A stretch of 64,000 nt of DNA. Source: an uncultured Methylococcaceae bacterium (GTDB lineage Bacteria; Pseudomonadota; Gammaproteobacteria; Methylococcales; Methylococcaceae). The stretch lies in NCBI GenBank assembly GCA_903859815.1, contig CAIOOA010000299.1:1-64000 (forward strand), given 5' to 3'. The notes beneath the pieces are model-generated. The model ran no database searches and had not been told where the DNA came from. It was given only the letters and a program-made list of their open reading frames with translations. A program made the position numbers and the translations under genes. Of the stretch, positions 347 through 13,197 are shown piece after piece (position 1 is the first letter of the stretch; every line of letters starts with the position of its first letter).

Positions 347-838
347 TTAACCGCCCTCGTTGGCCCACTCAAGCACATATTCTAAAGTTTGCGGATCAAT
401 GCGAAAGCCATTTTGCACCAATTGTTCGACCAGTGGCGCAAGCAAGGTAATTTGGTTATGTTTCTTTGCTCGCATGAGTATGCCGAGCGTACCTGTCATC
501 GGGATGCCAAGCGTTTGTGCACATCTTCGTGCCGCACCATCGTCTAATATGGCTTCAAAGCCGGGGTTCGACAAGCACCAAGAAAGAACTTGGGTTTCCC
601 CCGCGCCTAAATCCCATGCAGAGATAATATTCGCTGTTGGAACATCTAGGCGGATAAAATCCCGCCCCGCTGAAGCCAGCCAAAGCTTTGCAGGATCATG
701 GGCAGGGCCATCCTTAATTTCGGCGGCAACGGATTGGGGAATCACGAGCTGCGTACACAAAGCCGAAAGTAAATTAAGCTGCTGAATTTTACCAAGCAGA
801 ATAGTGGGCGATGAATTGACGACCCAGGTTTTAGTCAC
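347..838 (-). CDS. DUF3368-type PIN-domain toxin
   Basis: The product is 163 residues. It starts with WVVNSSPTILL, the first strand of DUF3368 PIN ribonucleases, where N and S surround the metal site. It continues with AWDLGAGETQVLSW (the conserved GE helix) and ends with the ILDDGAARR and TGTLGILMRAKK motifs of this family. I chose the GTG at 838 because it overlaps the end of the upstream antitoxin gene by 8 bases, the same arrangement as in the neighbouring pair. A 17-residue upstream extension in this frame would lie inside the antitoxin gene and lacks homology. Predicted activity is RNA cleavage when not bound by the partner; this is inferred from the family. Confidence 0.85.
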   Translation of the reverse strand: MTKTWVVNSSPTILLGKIQQLNLLSALCTQLVIPQSVAAEIKDGPAHDPAKLWLASAGRDFIRLDVPTANIISAWDLGAGETQVLSWCLSNPGFEAILDDGAARRCAQTLGIPMTGTLGILMRAKKHNQITLLAPLVEQLVQNGFRIDPQTLEYVLEWANEGG

Positions 839-1085
839 GCTCGATTTCCTTTTGCAATTCCTCCGGTGTGGTTTGAAATGGCGAGGCATTGAACCGACTT
901 AACGCCAACAAAAAGTCATGACGGCTCAAACCAGCAATTTCAGCAGCCTTGGCTTGGGAAATCAATTGCATTTCATACCATTTTACCGCTGCCGTGACCC
1001 GCATTTCAGAAACAAATTCGTCAGGGGTTTTGCGCAACGCGGAGAAAACAGTATCAGGGAGTTGTAAATTAACTTGAATATTCAT
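831..1085 (-). CDS. UPF0175 family antitoxin
   Basis: The product is 84 residues and begins MNIQVNLQLPDTV. It carries the UPF0175 core AVKWYEMQLISQAKAAEIAG, a helix-turn-helix-like segment in which low-identity members share 'A..LY....IS...AA..AG'. UPF0175 proteins are the usual antitoxins of DUF3368 PIN toxins. The gene precedes and overlaps the toxin by 8 bases, the standard antitoxin-first order. A GAGAGA element before the ATG at 1085 supports this start over a longer frame beginning at 1100. Confidence 0.85.
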   Translation of the reverse strand: MNIQVNLQLPDTVFSALRKTPDEFVSEMRVTAAVKWYEMQLISQAKAAEIAGLSRHDFLLALSRFNASPFQTTPEELQKEIERD

Positions 1086-1173
1086 GTCGTAATCTCTCAA
1101 CTTTGGAAATCACCGCTTTACAGTGCCGTAGGGTGCGGTGAGGTGCGAACCCCATCAAAAATATATTTTGGGC

Positions 1174-1668
1174 TTACTCACCTGCCTCACGCAAGGCGAA
1201 TTCGACCACTTTGGCGCTAAGCCAGATGCCGCGCTGCCGCATTCGCCGGATAGCTTCCGTAATGGACAAGGGATAGCCCAGGGTCTTGGCACGTAACAGT
1301 ATGCCGATTGAACCCGTGACCGTCAGACCGGACAAACGCGCAAAGCGCCGTCCAACGGTTTCGTCGATAGCCACCAAGGGGAGACCCTGCTGCAAAGCCA
1401 ACTGGATCACGGCGGCTTCGCCAAGATCAAGGGAATTCTGCAACAGCGAAGAAAGAGTGACAGGATGGGTTTGCTTATGCAGCCAGCCCGCACGCTCAAA
1501 CTCCGGGATGGCAAAACCATCAGAGCCGCCCGCGTGGATTTCCCGGCAAACTTCCCACGGCACCCAAACGCGGCAGTACAAGATCGGTAGGATATCCAAT
1601 GAACCCACCGCTGCGATCAACGCGAGAATCGGCGTGGTGTTGATAACCAATTCCTTACTATTAGGCAT
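1174..1668 (-). CDS. DUF3368-type PIN-domain toxin, second copy
   Basis: The product is 164 residues. It has the PIN/DUF3368 landmarks ELVINTTPILALIA at the N-terminus, DLGEAAVIQLAL in the middle, VAIDETVGRR, and TGSIGILLRAK near the C-terminus. It is clearly related to the toxin at 347-838 but divergent, so it is not a recent duplicate. Its ATG overlaps the 3' end of the antitoxin gene by 8 bases. Predicted role: endoribonuclease toxin of a VapC-like type II module, by family. Confidence 0.85.
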   Translation of the reverse strand: MPNSKELVINTTPILALIAAVGSLDILPILYCRVWVPWEVCREIHAGGSDGFAIPEFERAGWLHKQTHPVTLSSLLQNSLDLGEAAVIQLALQQGLPLVAIDETVGRRFARLSGLTVTGSIGILLRAKTLGYPLSITEAIRRMRQRGIWLSAKVVEFALREAGE

Positions 1669-1909
1669 TGTTTAAATCAGCCAGCAATTCCTCGGCGGTC
1701 AAGTCAATCGCCGCGACGCCATAGCGATGCAGATCGAGCAGAAATTCGACCCGTTCGACACCAACTAAAGCCGCAGCCGTGCCGCTGGAAATCCGTTTCA
1801 TCTCATACAGTTTCACTGCCATCGCCATGACTGCCTCACGCTCAAATTGCTCTGGTGATTGTTGCAGGGCATCTGGGAGTTTTTCGGGATAATTTAAGAT
1901 CAACTGCAT
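1661..1909 (-). CDS. UPF0175 family antitoxin, second copy
   Basis: The product is 82 residues from MQLILNYPEKLPDAL, with the UPF0175 core AVKLYEMKRISSGTAAALVG. An AGAGAAA element precedes the ATG at 1909. The frame is open further upstream to 1987, but those extra codons encode a remnant of a PIN toxin N-terminus, not an antitoxin, so I reject the longer start. The gene is paired with the overlapping toxin at 1174-1668. Confidence 0.85.
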   Translation of the reverse strand: MQLILNYPEKLPDALQQSPEQFEREAVMAMAVKLYEMKRISSGTAAALVGVERVEFLLDLHRYGVAAIDLTAEELLADLNNA

Positions 1910-1987
1910 AGGGTTTCTCTGGTTAAGCTGTTGTTTTTTGACAAGCAGAATGGTGGGCGATGAATTGACAACCCAGGTTTTAGTCAA
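1910..1987 (-). pseudogene. 5' remnant of a third DUF3368 PIN toxin gene
   Basis: Read on the minus strand, this encodes TKTWVVNSSPTILLVKKQQL, nearly identical to the start of the toxin at 347-838 (TKTWVVNSSPTILLGKIQQL). The nucleotide match to 779-842 is also close. It then runs straight into the second antitoxin gene in the same frame. This looks like a toxin gene whose body was replaced by another toxin-antitoxin pair, or a recombination scar. Confidence 0.75.
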
Positions 1988-2055
1988 GCTGGATTATAAC
2001 TTAACAAAGGTTCCCAAACTTAAGTTTGGGAACCCGCTAAGAGACAATTTCAAAA

Positions 2056-3471
2056 CTATTGTGGACTGCGCGTGACCGACACTTTTGGAAATACGTCCAA
2101 TATTGAGGGCAGGGAATTTCCCCCGCTCATCAACGGTACACCGTAACCGGCAGGCACTAAATAGGCCGCTATTTCCGTTGCCGATGCATCGGAGCCGCCT
2201 GTCGTGATGTTGGCCGAAAATGTACCGTCGGATTTGATCGAGGTTAATGGCGAGGCAAAGGTCGGTTTGGTCCACCACCCCGCCCCCACTTTAATATAGA
2301 GGGCGACATGATAAGCATTAGTGGATACGTTAGCCACTTTACCGACCAAAGGATTGGTGGAACCATAAGCCGGCACTGAGGTAAATTGCAGGGAGGCTGA
2401 ATCGGCCCCCGAGCAACCCGTCACCGGCAACCAGGTTGACAAAGCACCGGCATCTTGCATAGCCCCGTCAGGGCCTATGTAATAGACATGGTTGTCAGCC
2501 GATGAAACCCCCAAATAGGTGTTAGTCTTTGCATAATATCGATAGGTATATACCGACCATACCAATGTAGGGGAGTTTGCCGGGCTAAAGAAGAAACCGT
2601 AGCTTTTTTCCGCCCAATCGAAAAAACAGGTGGTTTGGGGCGACACGTCAAATATGGCGCGAACCCAGTCTACATCGAAGGTATAAGACTGGTTATCTTC
2701 CGCTTTGGACGCTGGCAGTAAATTGGCATCACAGGCACTGACCCAATCACAAGAGGGGGCATAAAAATTGAGATAAAGTGCCAAAGCTTGTTGTGGAATG
2801 AATGTCGTATTTTCCCGTATCAGTTGGTTGTTGACATACCAACGCACCCGATCAGGCCACCATTCAATTCGATAATTGTTAAACTGTGTCACATCAAACG
2901 GGGAAAGGCTGCCAAACTCAGGATGCCCCTCGCCCAATGGTTCGAGATGATAAATGTTGGTTTGAACCTTATTAGGCAAATTGCTAAGCAGTTCGAAATC
3001 GATTTCGCTATGGGTTTGCGTAGCCGGGAAAAAACTATAAAGAAAGGCCCCGCCCACTAAGCCCTTGACGGGAGCGACCATACGCGCTCGTATTTCCGCG
3101 ATCAAGCCAGTCCCATGCTCGGCAGCGCCTCGCGTGTGAATTTCCGACCCATAAAATGATTGACCAACCGGGTTGCCCGTCGGATTGTAAGTGTCCAATT
3201 GCAGATGAAGCAATCCGTTGGATACGTTAGGGTAACCCGCCCTCATTTGAGTTCGGCCATTAAAGGAAGCGTCACCGATTGGATAAGCCCATATTGTTTC
3301 ATCAACCGAACTGCCGGTAAAATCTTCAAAAAACTGGGATTCGGCTTGAGCGTAAGGAATGCTTAGAAATAGCAGCAATAAGGCGCTGGTTAGACAAAAG
3401 ACAGCTTTATGAGTAGAAGCAGCTAATAATGCGAAATTCCGAGTTACTAAATAACGGTACATAGCGAACAC
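2056..3471 (-). CDS. Secreted GH16 family glycoside hydrolase with two C-terminal modules
   Basis: The product is 471 residues. A Sec signal peptide ends near AQA (residue ~43). The catalytic domain (about 45-275) carries the GH16 motif EIDFE with its two catalytic glutamates, so it should hydrolyse or transglycosylate a beta-1,3/1,4-glucan or related polysaccharide outside the cell; the exact substrate cannot be read. Residues ~280-354 form a module (C-FDWAE ... YRYYAKTNTYLGVS ... DGAMQD ... WL-GC) that recurs in the amidohydrolase at 11653-13197. Residues ~355-471 form another module with YGS, YIKVGAGWWTKP and ITTGG motifs. An AGGGGTG ribosome site precedes the ATG. The leader contains a predicted c-di-GMP riboswitch, so expression is probably tied to surface or biofilm signalling. 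Confidence 0.85.
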   Translation of the reverse strand: MFAMYRYLVTRNFALLAASTHKAVFCLTSALLLLFLSIPYAQAESQFFEDFTGSSVDETIWAYPIGDASFNGRTQMRAGYPNVSNGLLHLQLDTYNPTGNPVGQSFYGSEIHTRGAAEHGTGLIAEIRARMVAPVKGLVGGAFLYSFFPATQTHSEIDFELLSNLPNKVQTNIYHLEPLGEGHPEFGSLSPFDVTQFNNYRIEWWPDRVRWYVNNQLIRENTTFIPQQALALYLNFYAPSCDWVSACDANLLPASKAEDNQSYTFDVDWVRAIFDVSPQTTCFFDWAEKSYGFFFSPANSPTLVWSVYTYRYYAKTNTYLGVSSADNHVYYIGPDGAMQDAGALSTWLPVTGCSGADSASLQFTSVPAYGSTNPLVGKVANVSTNAYHVALYIKVGAGWWTKPTFASPLTSIKSDGTFSANITTGGSDASATEIAAYLVPAGYGVPLMSGGNSLPSILDVFPKVSVTRSPQ

Positions 3472-3495
3472 CCCTGCAAGTGATTCCTCTAGGCC

Positions 3496-3553
3496 AAAAA
3501 AAACCGGATTGACATAAGTTACCCCTGCAACAGAGGCACTCTTGGCAATCCGG
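3496..3553 (-). terminator. Riboswitch-controlled intrinsic terminator
   Basis: On the minus strand CCGGATTG (3553-3546) is complementary to CAATCCGG (3511-3504), which is followed at once by eight T (3503-3496). An inner hairpin CCTCTG/CAGGGG lies in the loop. The 5' arm is the 3' strand of aptamer helix P1, so the two structures exclude each other: ligand-stabilised P1 would block the terminator. This predicts an ON switch for the GH16 gene. Confidence 0.75.
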
Positions 3554-3630
3554 CTTTCCCTTGGTCTAATCTGGCCTGCTCAGGGACCCGTGACTTTCCG
3601 TCCCCGCCTTACGAACGGGTTTGGCTTTAG
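3544..3630 (-). promoter_or_regulatory. Cyclic-di-GMP-I (GEMM-I) riboswitch aptamer
   Basis: On the minus strand this reads like the GEMM-I consensus. In order there are GCCAAACC, a GUAA tetraloop hairpin (CCCGUUC...GGCGGGG), GGGGACGGAAAGUCACGGGUC, a variable P3 arm, and GCCGGAUUGCC closing P1. The position aligned to ligand-contacting G20 of the Vibrio Vc2 aptamer is G, which fits c-di-GMP rather than cGAMP selectivity. One core base differs from consensus (CGCAAAG to CGGAAAG). It sits about 70 bases upstream of the GH16 gene in the same orientation. Confidence 0.8.
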
Positions 3631-3636
3631 GCTCAA

Positions 3637-3666
3637 ACTGTAGACCCGGTTTCCATGAATTGTCAA
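3637..3666 (-). promoter_or_regulatory. Putative sigma-70 promoter of the riboswitch/GH16 unit
   Basis: A perfect -35 box TTGACA (3666-3661) is followed after 18 bases by TACAGT (3642-3637, four of six matches to the -10 consensus). Transcription would start near 3630, just where the aptamer begins. The remaining part of the 3472-3839 intergenic stretch is AT-rich with no further recognisable element. Confidence 0.55.
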
Positions 3667-3839
3667 CAAAATATAATTTTCCGCACTTATTAAACAATAT
3701 TATATAGGGTATGCTATTGATTAAAATAAAAACTTACTATTAAAACCAAGTAAATTCATCTAGCTTATTTCACTGAATCCCAAGCTCCTAATTCGTAGGT
3801 GATCTATGGACTAAATTGGTCAGTTTTTTAGCAGGTGTG

Positions 3840-4166
3840 TCAAGCAATTTGTGGCCCCCTTTCGCCTGTGTTGATTCGACCACCTTCCAAAACTTCAATC
3901 ACGTAGACCTTGCCAGCGCCGTGTTGGTGAGTGCAAGCATGTTTCATGACTGTGTCGAATATCACTTCAACCATGGCATCTGTAGCAAAAATCTCGACCC
4001 TCTTTTTCGCCAAGAAAGGGGTGTAATCTTGGTTTCCTGTCACTTTCTCACGTCCAAACCCTTCGCAATTCGAAACGCTCATACCGGGGAAGTTAGGTAT
4101 CTCCAACAGCGCCTGCGTGAGCTTAGGCAGCATGAACGGTTGGATGTATGCGCGAATTTCTTTCAT
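3840..4166 (-). CDS. PII-like signal-transduction protein linked to metal efflux
   Basis: The product is 108 residues. It has the PII fold signatures MKEIRAYIQPFML at strand 1, a T-loop region GFGREKVTGNQDY shorter than in GlnB/GlnK, VEIFATDAMVEVIFDTV, and the C-terminal VYVIEVLEGGRINTGERG, equivalent to the PII RxxTGE segment. It lies 8 bases downstream of the RND pump gene in the same operon. A group of PII paralogues without the GlnB uridylylated tyrosine is known to sit beside heavy-metal RND pumps (called PII-NG in the literature). I infer a role in sensing or gating of efflux rather than nitrogen control. Confidence 0.8.
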   Translation of the reverse strand: MKEIRAYIQPFMLPKLTQALLEIPNFPGMSVSNCEGFGREKVTGNQDYTPFLAKKRVEIFATDAMVEVIFDTVMKHACTHQHGAGKVYVIEVLEGGRINTGERGPQIA

Positions 4167-4174
4167 GGTTGCAC

Positions 4175-7100
4175 CTAAGCAGTTGGGTTGTCCTCAAAGT
4201 TCCTGTACAAAGCTGGCAGCATGGTCAAGGTCAGCAGGGTGGCGCTGATTAGACCCCCTATAATGACCACCGCAAAGGGTTTGGCGGTTTCCGATCCGAC
4301 ACTGGTGGAAACAGCCGCCGGGATCAAACCCAGCATGGCCATCAATGCCGTCATGACCACTGGGCGTAGTCGACTCACTGAGCCATTGATAATAGCCGCA
4401 TTAAGGGTTTGCCCTTCGCGGCGAAACTGATTGATCTGCGATATCAAGATAACACCATTCTGCACCGCTATGCCGAAAAGTGCAATAAAACCAACGGCGG
4501 CGGAAACGCTAAGATGGATTCCGGTCACCAGCAATGCCACTAAACCGCCAATCAAGGCAAACGGAACGTTCATGACAATCAGCGTGGCGTTTTTCATGGA
4601 ATGGAAAGCCCAAAACAATAGCACAAAGATTAATGCCAAACTGATAGGCACGATGACAAAAAGCCGTTTCATGGCGCGTTGCTGATTTTCAAATTGACCA
4701 CTCCAAAAAATGCGATAGCCAGGAGGCAAAACCACTTGACTGGCCACTTTTTCTTGGGCTTCTGCGACAAAGCTGCCTTGGTCACGGTCTATCAAGTTGC
4801 ACTTAATGGCGATTCTTCGCATATTGTCTTCACGGCTAATGCGAGAAGCACCCTGATCTACCTTGATCTCCGCCAGTTGTGCCAAGGGAATTCGGCTACC
4901 ATCGGGGGCAGGAACCAACAGGTCCTCAATCACGCCCAAGGAATCACGGGCATCCTCCCTAAGCCGTACATTGATGTCAAACCGCCGTTCACCTTCCAGC
5001 ATGTGTGAGGCTGGCTTGCCGCCAATCGCAGTTTCGATAATATCTTCCACATCCTTTACGTTGATGCCGTGACGAGCAATCCTCGCCCGGTCAATGTCGA
5101 TCACCACTTGGGCTAAGCCGGACTGCTGTTCGGCCGCCACGTCGGTGGCTCCCCGGGTATTCTTTAAGATGCGGGTGATTTGATTGGCTTTTTCTTGCAG
5201 CACTTTCAAGTCTTCGCCAAAGATTTTTATTGCGATTTCACCTTTTACACCTGAAATGGCTTCCTCAACGTTGTCTTGGATGACTTGGGAAAAGTTGAAT
5301 TGCAAACCGGGGAAAACGGCCAACTTTTCTTGCATGGCTTCGACCATTTTATCTTTGCTGGGATAGCGCCAAGTGCTTTTGTCCTTCAGGTCAATCAATA
5401 CTTCCAAGTTGTTGAAGCCTTTGGGATCGGTGCCATCTTCCGGTCGCCCTAATTGAGTCAAAACCGACTTGGCTTCTGGGAATTTGGTCAGCCTACCCCG
5501 GATATCGCGTTCAAGTTCCTTGGCTTTAGTGAGTGATACCGGCGTGGGTAACGTAATGGTGAGCCAAATATTGCCTTCGTCCAACTTGGGCATGAATTCG
5601 GTGCCGATGAAGTGGGCCGAGCCAATCGATAGCGCCAAGGCAGCGACCGCGCCAGCAAACATTTTCATTGGGTTTCTTAAGATGACTACCAAAACCGACT
5701 TGTAGACCTTTTCCATCCAATGCACCAAGGGATTGTGTGCCTCGGTCAGCTTCGGTCCAAGCATATAGCTCAATAAAACAGGCACTAAAGTAAGGCTAAG
5801 AATTAGCGAGCCTAACAATGCGAAGCTTAGTGTGTAAGCCATTGGGGAAAAAATTTTGGCCTCCACCCGTTGGAAAGTAAAAATCGGCAAAAAGGCGGTG
5901 ATGATAATCGCCTTGGAAAACAGAATAGGACGGCCAAGCTCAGACGCGGTAATCAGCATGGATTGCCGCATGTGAGGGATACTGGCCTGCTGGCTCATAT
6001 CCAAAGTCACCTTGACCATGATTGCCTCGACTAGTACGACGGCACTATCGACAATGATGCCAAAGTCTATTGCGCCTAGGGAAATCAAATTGGCAGAGAT
6101 ATGCTGTATGTCGATCAATATGAAAGCAAAAAGCAACGACAAAGGGATGACGAGAATGACGACTAACGATGCCCACGCCCGGCGCAGAAATATCATCAAT
6201 ATCAACAGAATCAGGCCAGCCCCTTCAAGCATGTTATGCATGACGGTTTTGACCGTGTGATTCACCAACTCCGTCCGGTCATAAATAGGCACAATTTTCA
6301 CGCCAGGAGGTAGTCCAAAAGAATTCAAATCCTTGATTTTTTCTTTAACACCTCCCAAGACTTGCAAGGCATCGCGCCCTTTAACGAGCAGCACCACGCC
6401 TTCAACCACATCATCCATTTGATTGAAACCGACGATGCCACTGCGTGGTTGCGGGCCCACGCCAATATCGGCAATATTTTTGACGAACACTGGGGTTCCG
6501 TTGCGACTGGCAACGATGATGTCGCCAATTTCATCGGCGGTTTTAAGCAGTCCCGCACCACGCACCACCAGCGCTTCATAACCATGTTCGATGTAACCCC
6601 CGCCAATATTAGCGTTATTGTTTGCGATGGCTTGATACACATCTTGCAAACTGAGTCTGTAATTTTTTAGTTTGTTCGGGTCTATCTTGACTTGATATTG
6701 TTTGACCCCACCTCCAAATGCCACCACATCGGCCACACCTTGGACCGAGCGTAGGCGGCGTTCCACCACCCAGTCCTGCAAGGCGCGCTGTTCGACCAGT
6801 GGCATTGTTGGCGCTTCGATACGATAGCGGTAAATTTCACCGACACCCGTGGACAATGGGCCTAGAACCGGGTCTGTGTCTGATGGGAGGCTGACGGCAC
6901 GTAAGCGCTCCAACACCTGTTGACGGGAAAAATAATCTTCGGCATCGTCGTCAAAAATCAGGGTAACCACAGACAGCCCAAAAATAGACACGGATCGCAT
7001 GTTGGTTAAATGTGGCAAGCCATTCATTTCCTTTTCAATGGGAAGGGTGACCAGCTTCTCAACCTCCTCCGGGGCTTGTCCAGGGAACTGGGTGACTACT

Positions 7101-11615: not shown

Positions 11616-11652
11616 GCCATATCAGTTACTTAAATGCGCAACCTTCGGTCGT

Positions 11653-13197
11653 TTATTGGCATCCTGACTTGGTTAGCCAATTGGCAAACGTGCCCTGATC
11701 TTGCAATATCCCGTCAGAACTCATGGAGTAGATATGATGATCCGACATGGACACGCCCAAATAACTTTTTGTTGAAGGATAGAAACGATAGGTAAAGCCA
11801 GCACCCACTTTCGTGAAAGATCCGACTGGGGCGAAAGCCTTGGAGTAATTTCCTTCAGCCCAATTGAAGAGGCATTCAGTATTGGGGTAGTTTTTGAAGT
11901 TGTTGACAATGGTCCGTCCTCCCGAAATCACCAAATCGGGATATTCTAACAGTTTGAATTTCTCAAAAGGATTACCCCGCACGGCGATTATGTCTGCCGG
12001 TGCGCCAGGTGTCAAAGTACCTAGGCCAGTAATGCCTAGTCGCTCGCCAGCCTTGGATGTTGCCGATTTAATGACGTTGACAACGTCGTTAAAATCGATG
12101 GAAGCCCCGCTAGTCAAATGCAGTATCATATGCAATTCCTCGCCGTTTATTCCCCAAGGCACATTGTCGTGGCCTATTTCAGAGCCATAGATGAATTGTG
12201 ATTTTGAATTGGGGTTTTGCGCCATTATTTCTGTCAGCTTATGGGTGTTGGAATGGATGCCCAATCCGTTTCCATTGACGCAAGAGCCAAGCGTATCAAT
12301 CGTCGTTACGAAAGTGACCCCTTGCTGAACCGCTTGCTGCAATAAAGAATCGTCAATGGCTGCGCAAGGCATATGGGCGAATTCATCAATGCCCCCAGCC
12401 AAAGCGCGTTTAAAGCCTTCATTCTCGCCGACATGAGCGATGACCCGCTTGCCAAGGGAATGGGCTTTGGTCACAATCGCGTTCACTATGTCCTGAGGCA
12501 GCAATTTCCACGGTGCTGCTGGAACGGGTTGGTCGCCATGCGGTTGCATCCATGGTGCGCCCGGTTCGCCGCCAGGTTCCAATGCAATCTTGATGGCCGT
12601 CGCCCCGCCCTGGACTATGTCACTCACAACTTTTTCCGCCTCTGCGGCTGAGGAAACCGGAATGCCAATCTTATCGTACCCGCCGACTCCTCCGCCAAAC
12701 ACGTTAAGCGGGTATCCGCCGGGGGCTTGGATAATCGGTCCCGCACTCAATAATCGCAAAGTGCCTTGGCCTCCTTCCACTTCCATCAACGGACCGCCAG
12801 TGTCTTGTACGGTTGTGATGCCATGCTCAAGTACTTTGTCCTTGCGGACGTTTTGGAATGTGACATGAGCATGCGATTCGATAAATCCAGGCATTAGGGT
12901 CGCTTCACCCAAATCGTAACGATTACCGCAGAGAAGGCTCAGATTAGCGGGCGAGTCAACTTTGCTAATTTTGTTGCCTTCGATCAATACGGCCAAGTTC
13001 TCTTGGGGAAAGTTGATACCGTCGAATAATCTTGCAGCGGTCAGGATGAGGCAACTTGGAGGGTTGGGTATCGGAGTTCCCGACAGATCCGTATGTGTTT
13101 CGCCCTCATGAGCGAATGTCTCAAAGGCCGCCCCCTGGCTCAATAGCATGGATAGCACCAACAAGTGGGGGTTTCGCCAGAAACTTCGTTTTTTCAT
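11653..13197 (-). CDS. Secreted amidohydrolase with WAE/LGVS C-terminal module
   Basis: The product is 514 residues. A signal peptide is followed by an amidohydrolase-superfamily TIM barrel (about 50-430). Metal-site residues are visible as ESHAHV (HxH), AIKIALEP (Lys), VIAHVGE, DEFAHM and GSEIGHDN (Asp region). GTLTPGAPADIIAVRGNPF is the usual C-terminal beta-sandwich return of imidazolonepropionase/prolidase-type enzymes. Residues ~440-514 repeat the module of the GH16 protein (C-FNWAE ... YRFYPSTKSYLGVS ... DGILQDQG ... WL-GC). The substrate is unknown; secretion suggests a peptide or small extracellular amide. Confidence 0.85.
   Translation of the reverse strand: MKKRSFWRNPHLLVLSMLLSQGAAFETFAHEGETHTDLSGTPIPNPPSCLILTAARLFDGINFPQENLAVLIEGNKISKVDSPANLSLLCGNRYDLGEATLMPGFIESHAHVTFQNVRKDKVLEHGITTVQDTGGPLMEVEGGQGTLRLLSAGPIIQAPGGYPLNVFGGGVGGYDKIGIPVSSAAEAEKVVSDIVQGGATAIKIALEPGGEPGAPWMQPHGDQPVPAAPWKLLPQDIVNAIVTKAHSLGKRVIAHVGENEGFKRALAGGIDEFAHMPCAAIDDSLLQQAVQQGVTFVTTIDTLGSCVNGNGLGIHSNTHKLTEIMAQNPNSKSQFIYGSEIGHDNVPWGINGEELHMILHLTSGASIDFNDVVNVIKSATSKAGERLGITGLGTLTPGAPADIIAVRGNPFEKFKLLEYPDLVISGGRTIVNNFKNYPNTECLFNWAEGNYSKAFAPVGSFTKVGAGFTYRFYPSTKSYLGVSMSDHHIYSMSSDGILQDQGTFANWLTKSGCQ

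Follow-up and report, generated by a model that had tools for sequence, protein, structure and literature searches.

A probable ON-type c-di-GMP-I riboswitch ahead of a GH16 glycosidase gene in an uncultured Methylococcaceae bacterium

We analysed a stretch of 64,000 nucleotides (the window) from the genome of an uncultured Methylococcaceae bacterium, which is assembled into 5.8 Mb in 315 contigs. On the minus strand, from 3666 to 3460, a promoter-like hexamer pair comes first, then an aptamer and a terminator hairpin, and finally a ribosome-binding-like site and a start codon. The original prediction had read a c-di-GMP-I riboswitch here, and the features it described are in their places on this strand. 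It had also named an Rfam covariance search with RF01051 as a check. That search returned a significant match at 3635-3541 (minus strand), with 51.9 bits against a gathering score of 35 and an E-value of 3e-7 over the whole window. Apart from this, Rfam matched only a tRNA at the cut-off in the 64 kb.

The gene behind the switch (2056-3462, minus strand) encodes a GH16 glycosidase of 468 aa when read from an ATG that lies 8 bases after a putative ribosome-binding-like site, AGGGG (3471-3475); the listed frame opens at a GTG at 3471. The protein matches PF00722 at 63 bits (cut-off 22) and carries EIDFE at residues 153-157 (2992-3006), invariant in five aligned homologues, so both the domain model and the ExDxE motif place it in the GH16 family. 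We take EIDFE to be the GH16 catalytic motif. Residues 1-40 (3343-3462), which end in AQA, look like a signal peptide by eye and also pass a crude signal-peptide rule. The target is thus a GH16 enzyme as predicted, and it is probably exported. Its nearest solved structures are beta-glucanases (best E 1.3e-9), the scores of the NCBIfam models BglS and ExoK stay far under their cut-offs, and the AlphaFold model is poor (mean pLDDT 48). A C-terminal domain of about 80 aa (2410-2646) recurs in other proteins of the genus according to sequence matches. The window genome has 18 matches to the GH16 protein, most of them over residues ~273-360 among the matches listed, and four other copies of the domain gave no Pfam match at the cut-off. 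The domain also ends an amidohydrolase-like frame in the window (11650-11895, minus strand). Downstream of the GH16 gene (347-1987, minus strand) are two UPF0175/DUF3368 pairs that resemble toxin-antitoxin systems. A DUF3368 protein, nearly identical by eye, adjoins the sister switch on contig C74 (L009 8277-8768).

For comparison we used related genomes of the order, in which RF01051 has matches at E 0.001 in 45 of 101 genomes, 44 of them over the cut-off. We analysed 131 aptamers from 42 genomes; among the matches listed, the others were mostly weak. In the window aptamer, the Rfam alignment and a constrained fold give a P2 hairpin (3603-3619) with a GUAA tetraloop at 3612-3609, and a GNRA loop is present in 128 of the 131 aptamers. 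The P3 hairpin (3547-3595), from the alignment and a fold from the predicted RNA start, has its 5' strand at 3595-3588 and its 3' strand, CCGGATT, at 3553-3547. We did not find the 11-base tetraloop receptor in the P3 of the window aptamer. Since its crude pattern is present in only 8 of the 131 aptamers, we do not regard it as required for membership in c-di-GMP-I. Across these aptamers the pattern goes solely with GAAA loops (8 of 23, and 0 of 108 other loops), and a GAAA loop paired with an 11-base receptor is known from other RNAs.

The bases G20, A47 and C92 of the Vc2 aptamer of V. cholerae presumably correspond to G3625, A3597 and C3545, and in the RF01051 alignment all three pocket-base equivalents are present. 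At the G20 place we take a G to be the base of c-di-GMP switches and an A that of the cGAMP members (GEMM-Ib); G3625 does not fit GEMM-Ib and, with the canonical A3597 and C3545, speaks against a cGAMP-type ligand. Another family of the same Rfam clan, RF03167 (c-di-GMP-I-GGC), scores 50.9 bits here, below its cut-off of 59, and we therefore filed the RNA under c-di-GMP-I. The RF03167 consensus has a G where the window RNA keeps an A at the A47 place. The two families overlap in the genus, where some aptamers pass both (for example G000:C297:1733-1828, with 57.7 and 61.1 bits). The evidence supports a real c-di-GMP-I aptamer upstream of the GH16 gene, in line with the original prediction, and by its sequence it should bind c-di-GMP. 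We think it unlikely that the same architecture serves another cyclic dinucleotide of the cGAMP type or has relaxed specificity. That possibility draws on the near-equal RF03167 score, on the close similarity of cGAMP aptamers and on the same ON logic in the pilM switch (PMC9262584, in excerpt), but it has the pocket bases and the sub-threshold RF03167 score against it.

The aptamer runs into an intrinsic terminator (3557-3496, minus strand), identified by its fold and by covariation over 17 loci. Its 5' arm consists of the P3 3' strand with the next bases, and its 3' arm is CAATCCGG at 3511-3504, followed by eight U (eight T at 3503-3496), as the original prediction had it. The hairpin has a folding energy of -33.1 kcal/mol (z -6.1), none of 200 shuffles folds as well, and 11 contiguous arm pairs are kept. 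A simple terminator pattern scan did not list this hairpin because the pattern permits only short loops and unbroken stems, so the evidence for it comes from the fold and from the comparative test described below. One part of the original prediction has to be corrected. It had the terminator overlapping the 3' strand of P1, but CCGGATTG (3553-3546) is the P3 3' strand plus the following G, and the Rfam structure line places its pairs within the right-hand hairpin. Judged by sequence and predicted fold, the terminator captures the P3 3' strand and the ligand-pairing C (C3545), not P1. We rejected competition through P1, the junction-closing helix that the Rfam model leaves out: the terminator builds its 5' arm from the P3 3' strand, P1 has 0 pairs in the register used, and retaining at least 20 upstream bases puts the P3 pairing probability at 0. 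The closest copies of the switch contain a short frame whose ATG lies within the terminator hairpin; by eye none was seen in divergent ones, and we took it as a by-product of the stem.

Under a strict criterion (at least 8 pairs to the P3 strand, at least 4 of them G-C), a P3-arm terminator is present in 17 of the 131 aptamers, whereas scrambled arms average 0.83 (maximum 4) and reversed arms give 4; this threshold was set after a first, looser result. That looser test (6 pairs) found 45 of 131 and was dropped, as it was not clearly above its arm-swap control (mean 35.8, maximum 45). Five of the 17 loci are copies of the cassette in the window. When the 17 are aligned, 89.3% of the cells pair. 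The arms covary, with 13 cells changed on both sides against a shuffled mean of 4.8 (0 of 500 as high) and at most 3 for slid partners, and two of the five covariation measures over these loci were not clearly above shuffles (39 and 313 of 500). The orthologue in G002, a genome of the window's genus, was retained in this alignment although a one-base deletion puts its arm out of register. Aptamer and terminator share a strand and are mutually exclusive, and therefore the arrangement reads as an ON switch. The logic of the original prediction, in which ligand binding prevents termination, is in this way supported by sequence, fold, comparative test and covariation. Two loci, G003:C277 (L083) and G006:C320 (L077), have by eye a separate downstream terminator after the aptamer, as in OFF switches, and the genus may hold switches of both signs.

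The original prediction also placed a TTGACA promoter just before the aptamer. The -35-like hexamer TTGACA is there (3661-3666), followed after a spacer of 18 by a -10-like TACAGT (3637-3642) that is weak (4/6), and we predict an RNA start at about 3628-3632. As a lone match the pair is not significant (2 promoter-like sites in 1900-4300, with 3.3 expected), so the support for it comes from the same position recurring in related loci. The -10-like hexamer ends 12 bases upstream of G3625. Of 12 genus loci, 10 have TTGAC and a -10-like hexamer 10-12 bases ahead of the pocket G (L009 and L073 at 10), and G000:C297a and G005:C10 are the two loci of the 12 that do not have this arrangement. Eight of the 10 promoter-bearing loci are copies linked to the window cassette by DNA search; the search did not return the other two, G000:C297b and G001:C145, which are therefore more independent. 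Over the order, 15 of 131 aptamers have the promoter in this position (shuffled mean 6.9, sd 2.4, maximum 14; neighbouring bin 13). This enrichment is only modest, and so we claim the promoter position solely for the genus cassettes.

A start about 7 bases past the -10 would likely give an RNA that has 3-7 bases ahead of the ligand pocket and lacks a P1 strand. By eye there is an alternative P1 of 4 pairs (UUUG/CAAG), but it overlaps the -10. Within the 17 loci of the strict terminator set, P1 has 0-1 contiguous pairs, except for 4 in L085. In the window RNA, the P3 3' strand has a mean pairing probability of 0.82 when the RNA begins at the predicted start, 0.73 when 10 bases before aptamer position 5 are kept, and 0.0 when 20, 35 or 60 are kept. 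The orthologue behaves like the window, as longer 5' ends abolish its aptamer fold. Among the relatives, L009, L078 and L085 tolerate longer 5' ends, and L072 and L073 only dip. We found no paper in the open-licence literature that treats a start site together with a P1 helix.

In folds of transcripts lengthening from 3632, the aptamer lies only 0.6-1.1 kcal/mol above the free minimum at lengths of 89 to 125 nt, and the terminator is favoured by 9.8 kcal/mol at 129 nt and by 15.5 at full length (136 nt), in an energy model without ligand or tertiary contacts. We propose that RNA polymerase would start a few bases before the ligand pocket, so that the RNA has no P1 helix. The aptamer would fold first, and about 37 bases of further synthesis would give the interval for capturing c-di-GMP. 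With the ligand bound, the P3 3' strand and the ligand-pairing C would be held in the aptamer, the terminator would be blocked and transcription would read through into the GH16 gene. With no ligand, CAATCCGG would pair with the P3 strand once made, and synthesis would halt at the U-run. High c-di-GMP would then mean more export of a beta-glucan-type glycosidase and, via the sister cassettes, of other exported proteins. With the aptamer, the terminator, their shared strand, the arm covariation and the GH16 domain each seen in the sequence or in a model, we hold it probable that a transcriptional ON riboswitch for c-di-GMP controls the GH16 gene; from these we infer ligand binding, the RNA start, the direction of the response in the cell, and the substrate and role of the enzyme.

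The absence of P1 may weaken ligand binding, and this bears on the idea that the riboswitch is decaying or non-responsive, with weak or no binding and a hairpin that merely attenuates transcription. Several relatives would fit such decay: in G000:C112 the 3' half of the aptamer seems lost, in G006:C89 (L174, L177) about 100 extra bases, partly palindromic, sit within the terminator hairpin of a sister switch, and the orthologue's terminator has lost one base from its 3' arm. There is also a precedent in Bc1 of Bacillus, which binds c-di-GMP, yet its genes do not respond (PMC11218506). However, the window keeps the three pocket bases, the GNRA loop and the run of 11 arm pairs, and its switch is 97% identical to that of the orthologous locus, where 9 arm pairs are left. 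We consider decay improbable here and retain the working ON switch as our reading. Switch direction is not to be assumed across species, but although class I switches are OFF in C. difficile and do not act via termination in V. cholerae (PMC6366702, in excerpt), an OFF switch or one that acts mainly on translation is highly improbable at this locus, where the shared strand makes aptamer and terminator exclusive and the ribosome-binding-like site lies downstream of the terminator, outside the aptamer.

ON-type members of class I have been published. Bc2 of Bacillus thuringiensis is an ON switch by antitermination that controls a collagen adhesion protein (excerpt of PMC4933901), and Bc3-5 of the same species, a triple tandem before cspABCDE, are also ON by antitermination (excerpt of PMC4759541). 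Like the window terminator, that of Bc4 recruits a portion of P3 together with the binding C, but it additionally takes P1, which is missing in the window RNA (same excerpt). The pilM switch of Geobacter metallireducens is ON as well, with the same aptamer fold, with aptamer and terminator exclusive and with a terminator that takes the ligand-pairing C; it differs in its ligand, cGAMP, and its target, a pilus gene (excerpt of PMC9262584). Class I switches before chitinase and gbpA genes in Aeromonas and Vibrio resemble ours in having an exported or polysaccharide-related target, although these targets belong to protein families other than GH16 (excerpt of PMC6366702). The original prediction overrated the novelty, since terminator-type ON switches of this class were already in print. 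We see the window switch as a further instance, made modestly more interesting by its lack of P1 and by how the cassette has spread. A search of the open-licence literature found no GH16 target of a class I switch, no paper that brings c-di-GMP-I riboswitches and glycoside hydrolases together, and no report under Methylococc-.

The genes behind these switches tend to look exported. We took as downstream gene the longest frame that starts no more than 400 bases away. By the crude signal-peptide rule, 95 of the 110 non-redundant proteins of at least 100 aa encoded there look exported, compared with 43 of 141 other non-redundant frames at the same loci. The window genome has six RF01051 matches, one of them below the cut-off. 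Besides the GH16 gene, they lie ahead of genes for a putative glucoamylase protein, for one BNR/sortilin-like and one FG-GAP protein and for a protein of 290 aa, and ahead of an open frame of 535 aa. The last two have no Pfam match, and the 535-aa frame has no signal-like start.

In G002, the switch regions before three genes are 82-88% identical. These genes are GH16, a BNR/sortilin-like gene (PF15902) and a gene with 231 visible aa, which match the N-terminal portion of the 2067-aa putative glucoamylase protein of the window genome. The three G002 downstream proteins have no mutual blastp match at 1e-3. In the window genome, the cassette before the 2067-aa protein (PF10091, 112 bits) is 81% identical to the one in the window over 109 bases. 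A DNA search with the window cassette found copies in four of the seven genus genomes. Global identities of about 65-72% are near the level of unrelated switch pairs, and the homology of the distant cassettes therefore rests on the DNA search instead. The simplest reading of these sequences is that promoter, aptamer and terminator were copied as one unit. We put forward, as a quite possible but tentative extension, that a P1-less switch whose RNA starts inside the aptamer region, with its 5' end bordering the pocket, has been copied as a cassette of about 170 bases before unrelated exported proteins, which would make these one c-di-GMP-controlled set in a Methylococcaceae genus.

The closest named relative of the GH16 gene, an orthologue in the record of an uncultured Methylococcaceae bacterium (L087), is 96% identical over residues 1-267 and also has the switch. 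Another Methylococcales record (L088) contains a relative with 68% identity, located 127 bases downstream of a GH3 glycosidase gene. At the Rfam cut-off this second relative has no riboswitch, and among the relatives L087-L090 only L087 has one. The L088 protein also has no long C-terminal extension. With both switch and extension missing from L088, the window lineage may have gained the two, or the L088 lineage may have lost them. The original prediction had linked the enzyme to matrix or food polysaccharide turnover. Such a role is plausible, and the beta-glucanase likeness, the GH3 neighbour of the relative and the cassette before a putative glucoamylase would all agree with it. If our reading is true, an exported GH16 enzyme joins the genes under c-di-GMP riboswitch control, and in a lake Methylococcaceae group a signal that likely marks attached life is tied to glycan cutting. 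The sister cassettes before unrelated genes would then offer a way to study how RNA switches are recruited and how an aptamer functions free of P1. At one diverged locus before an FG-GAP protein (G000:C297:3117-3196, L008), an A replaces the ligand-pairing C, and by eye the P3-strand terminator is kept.
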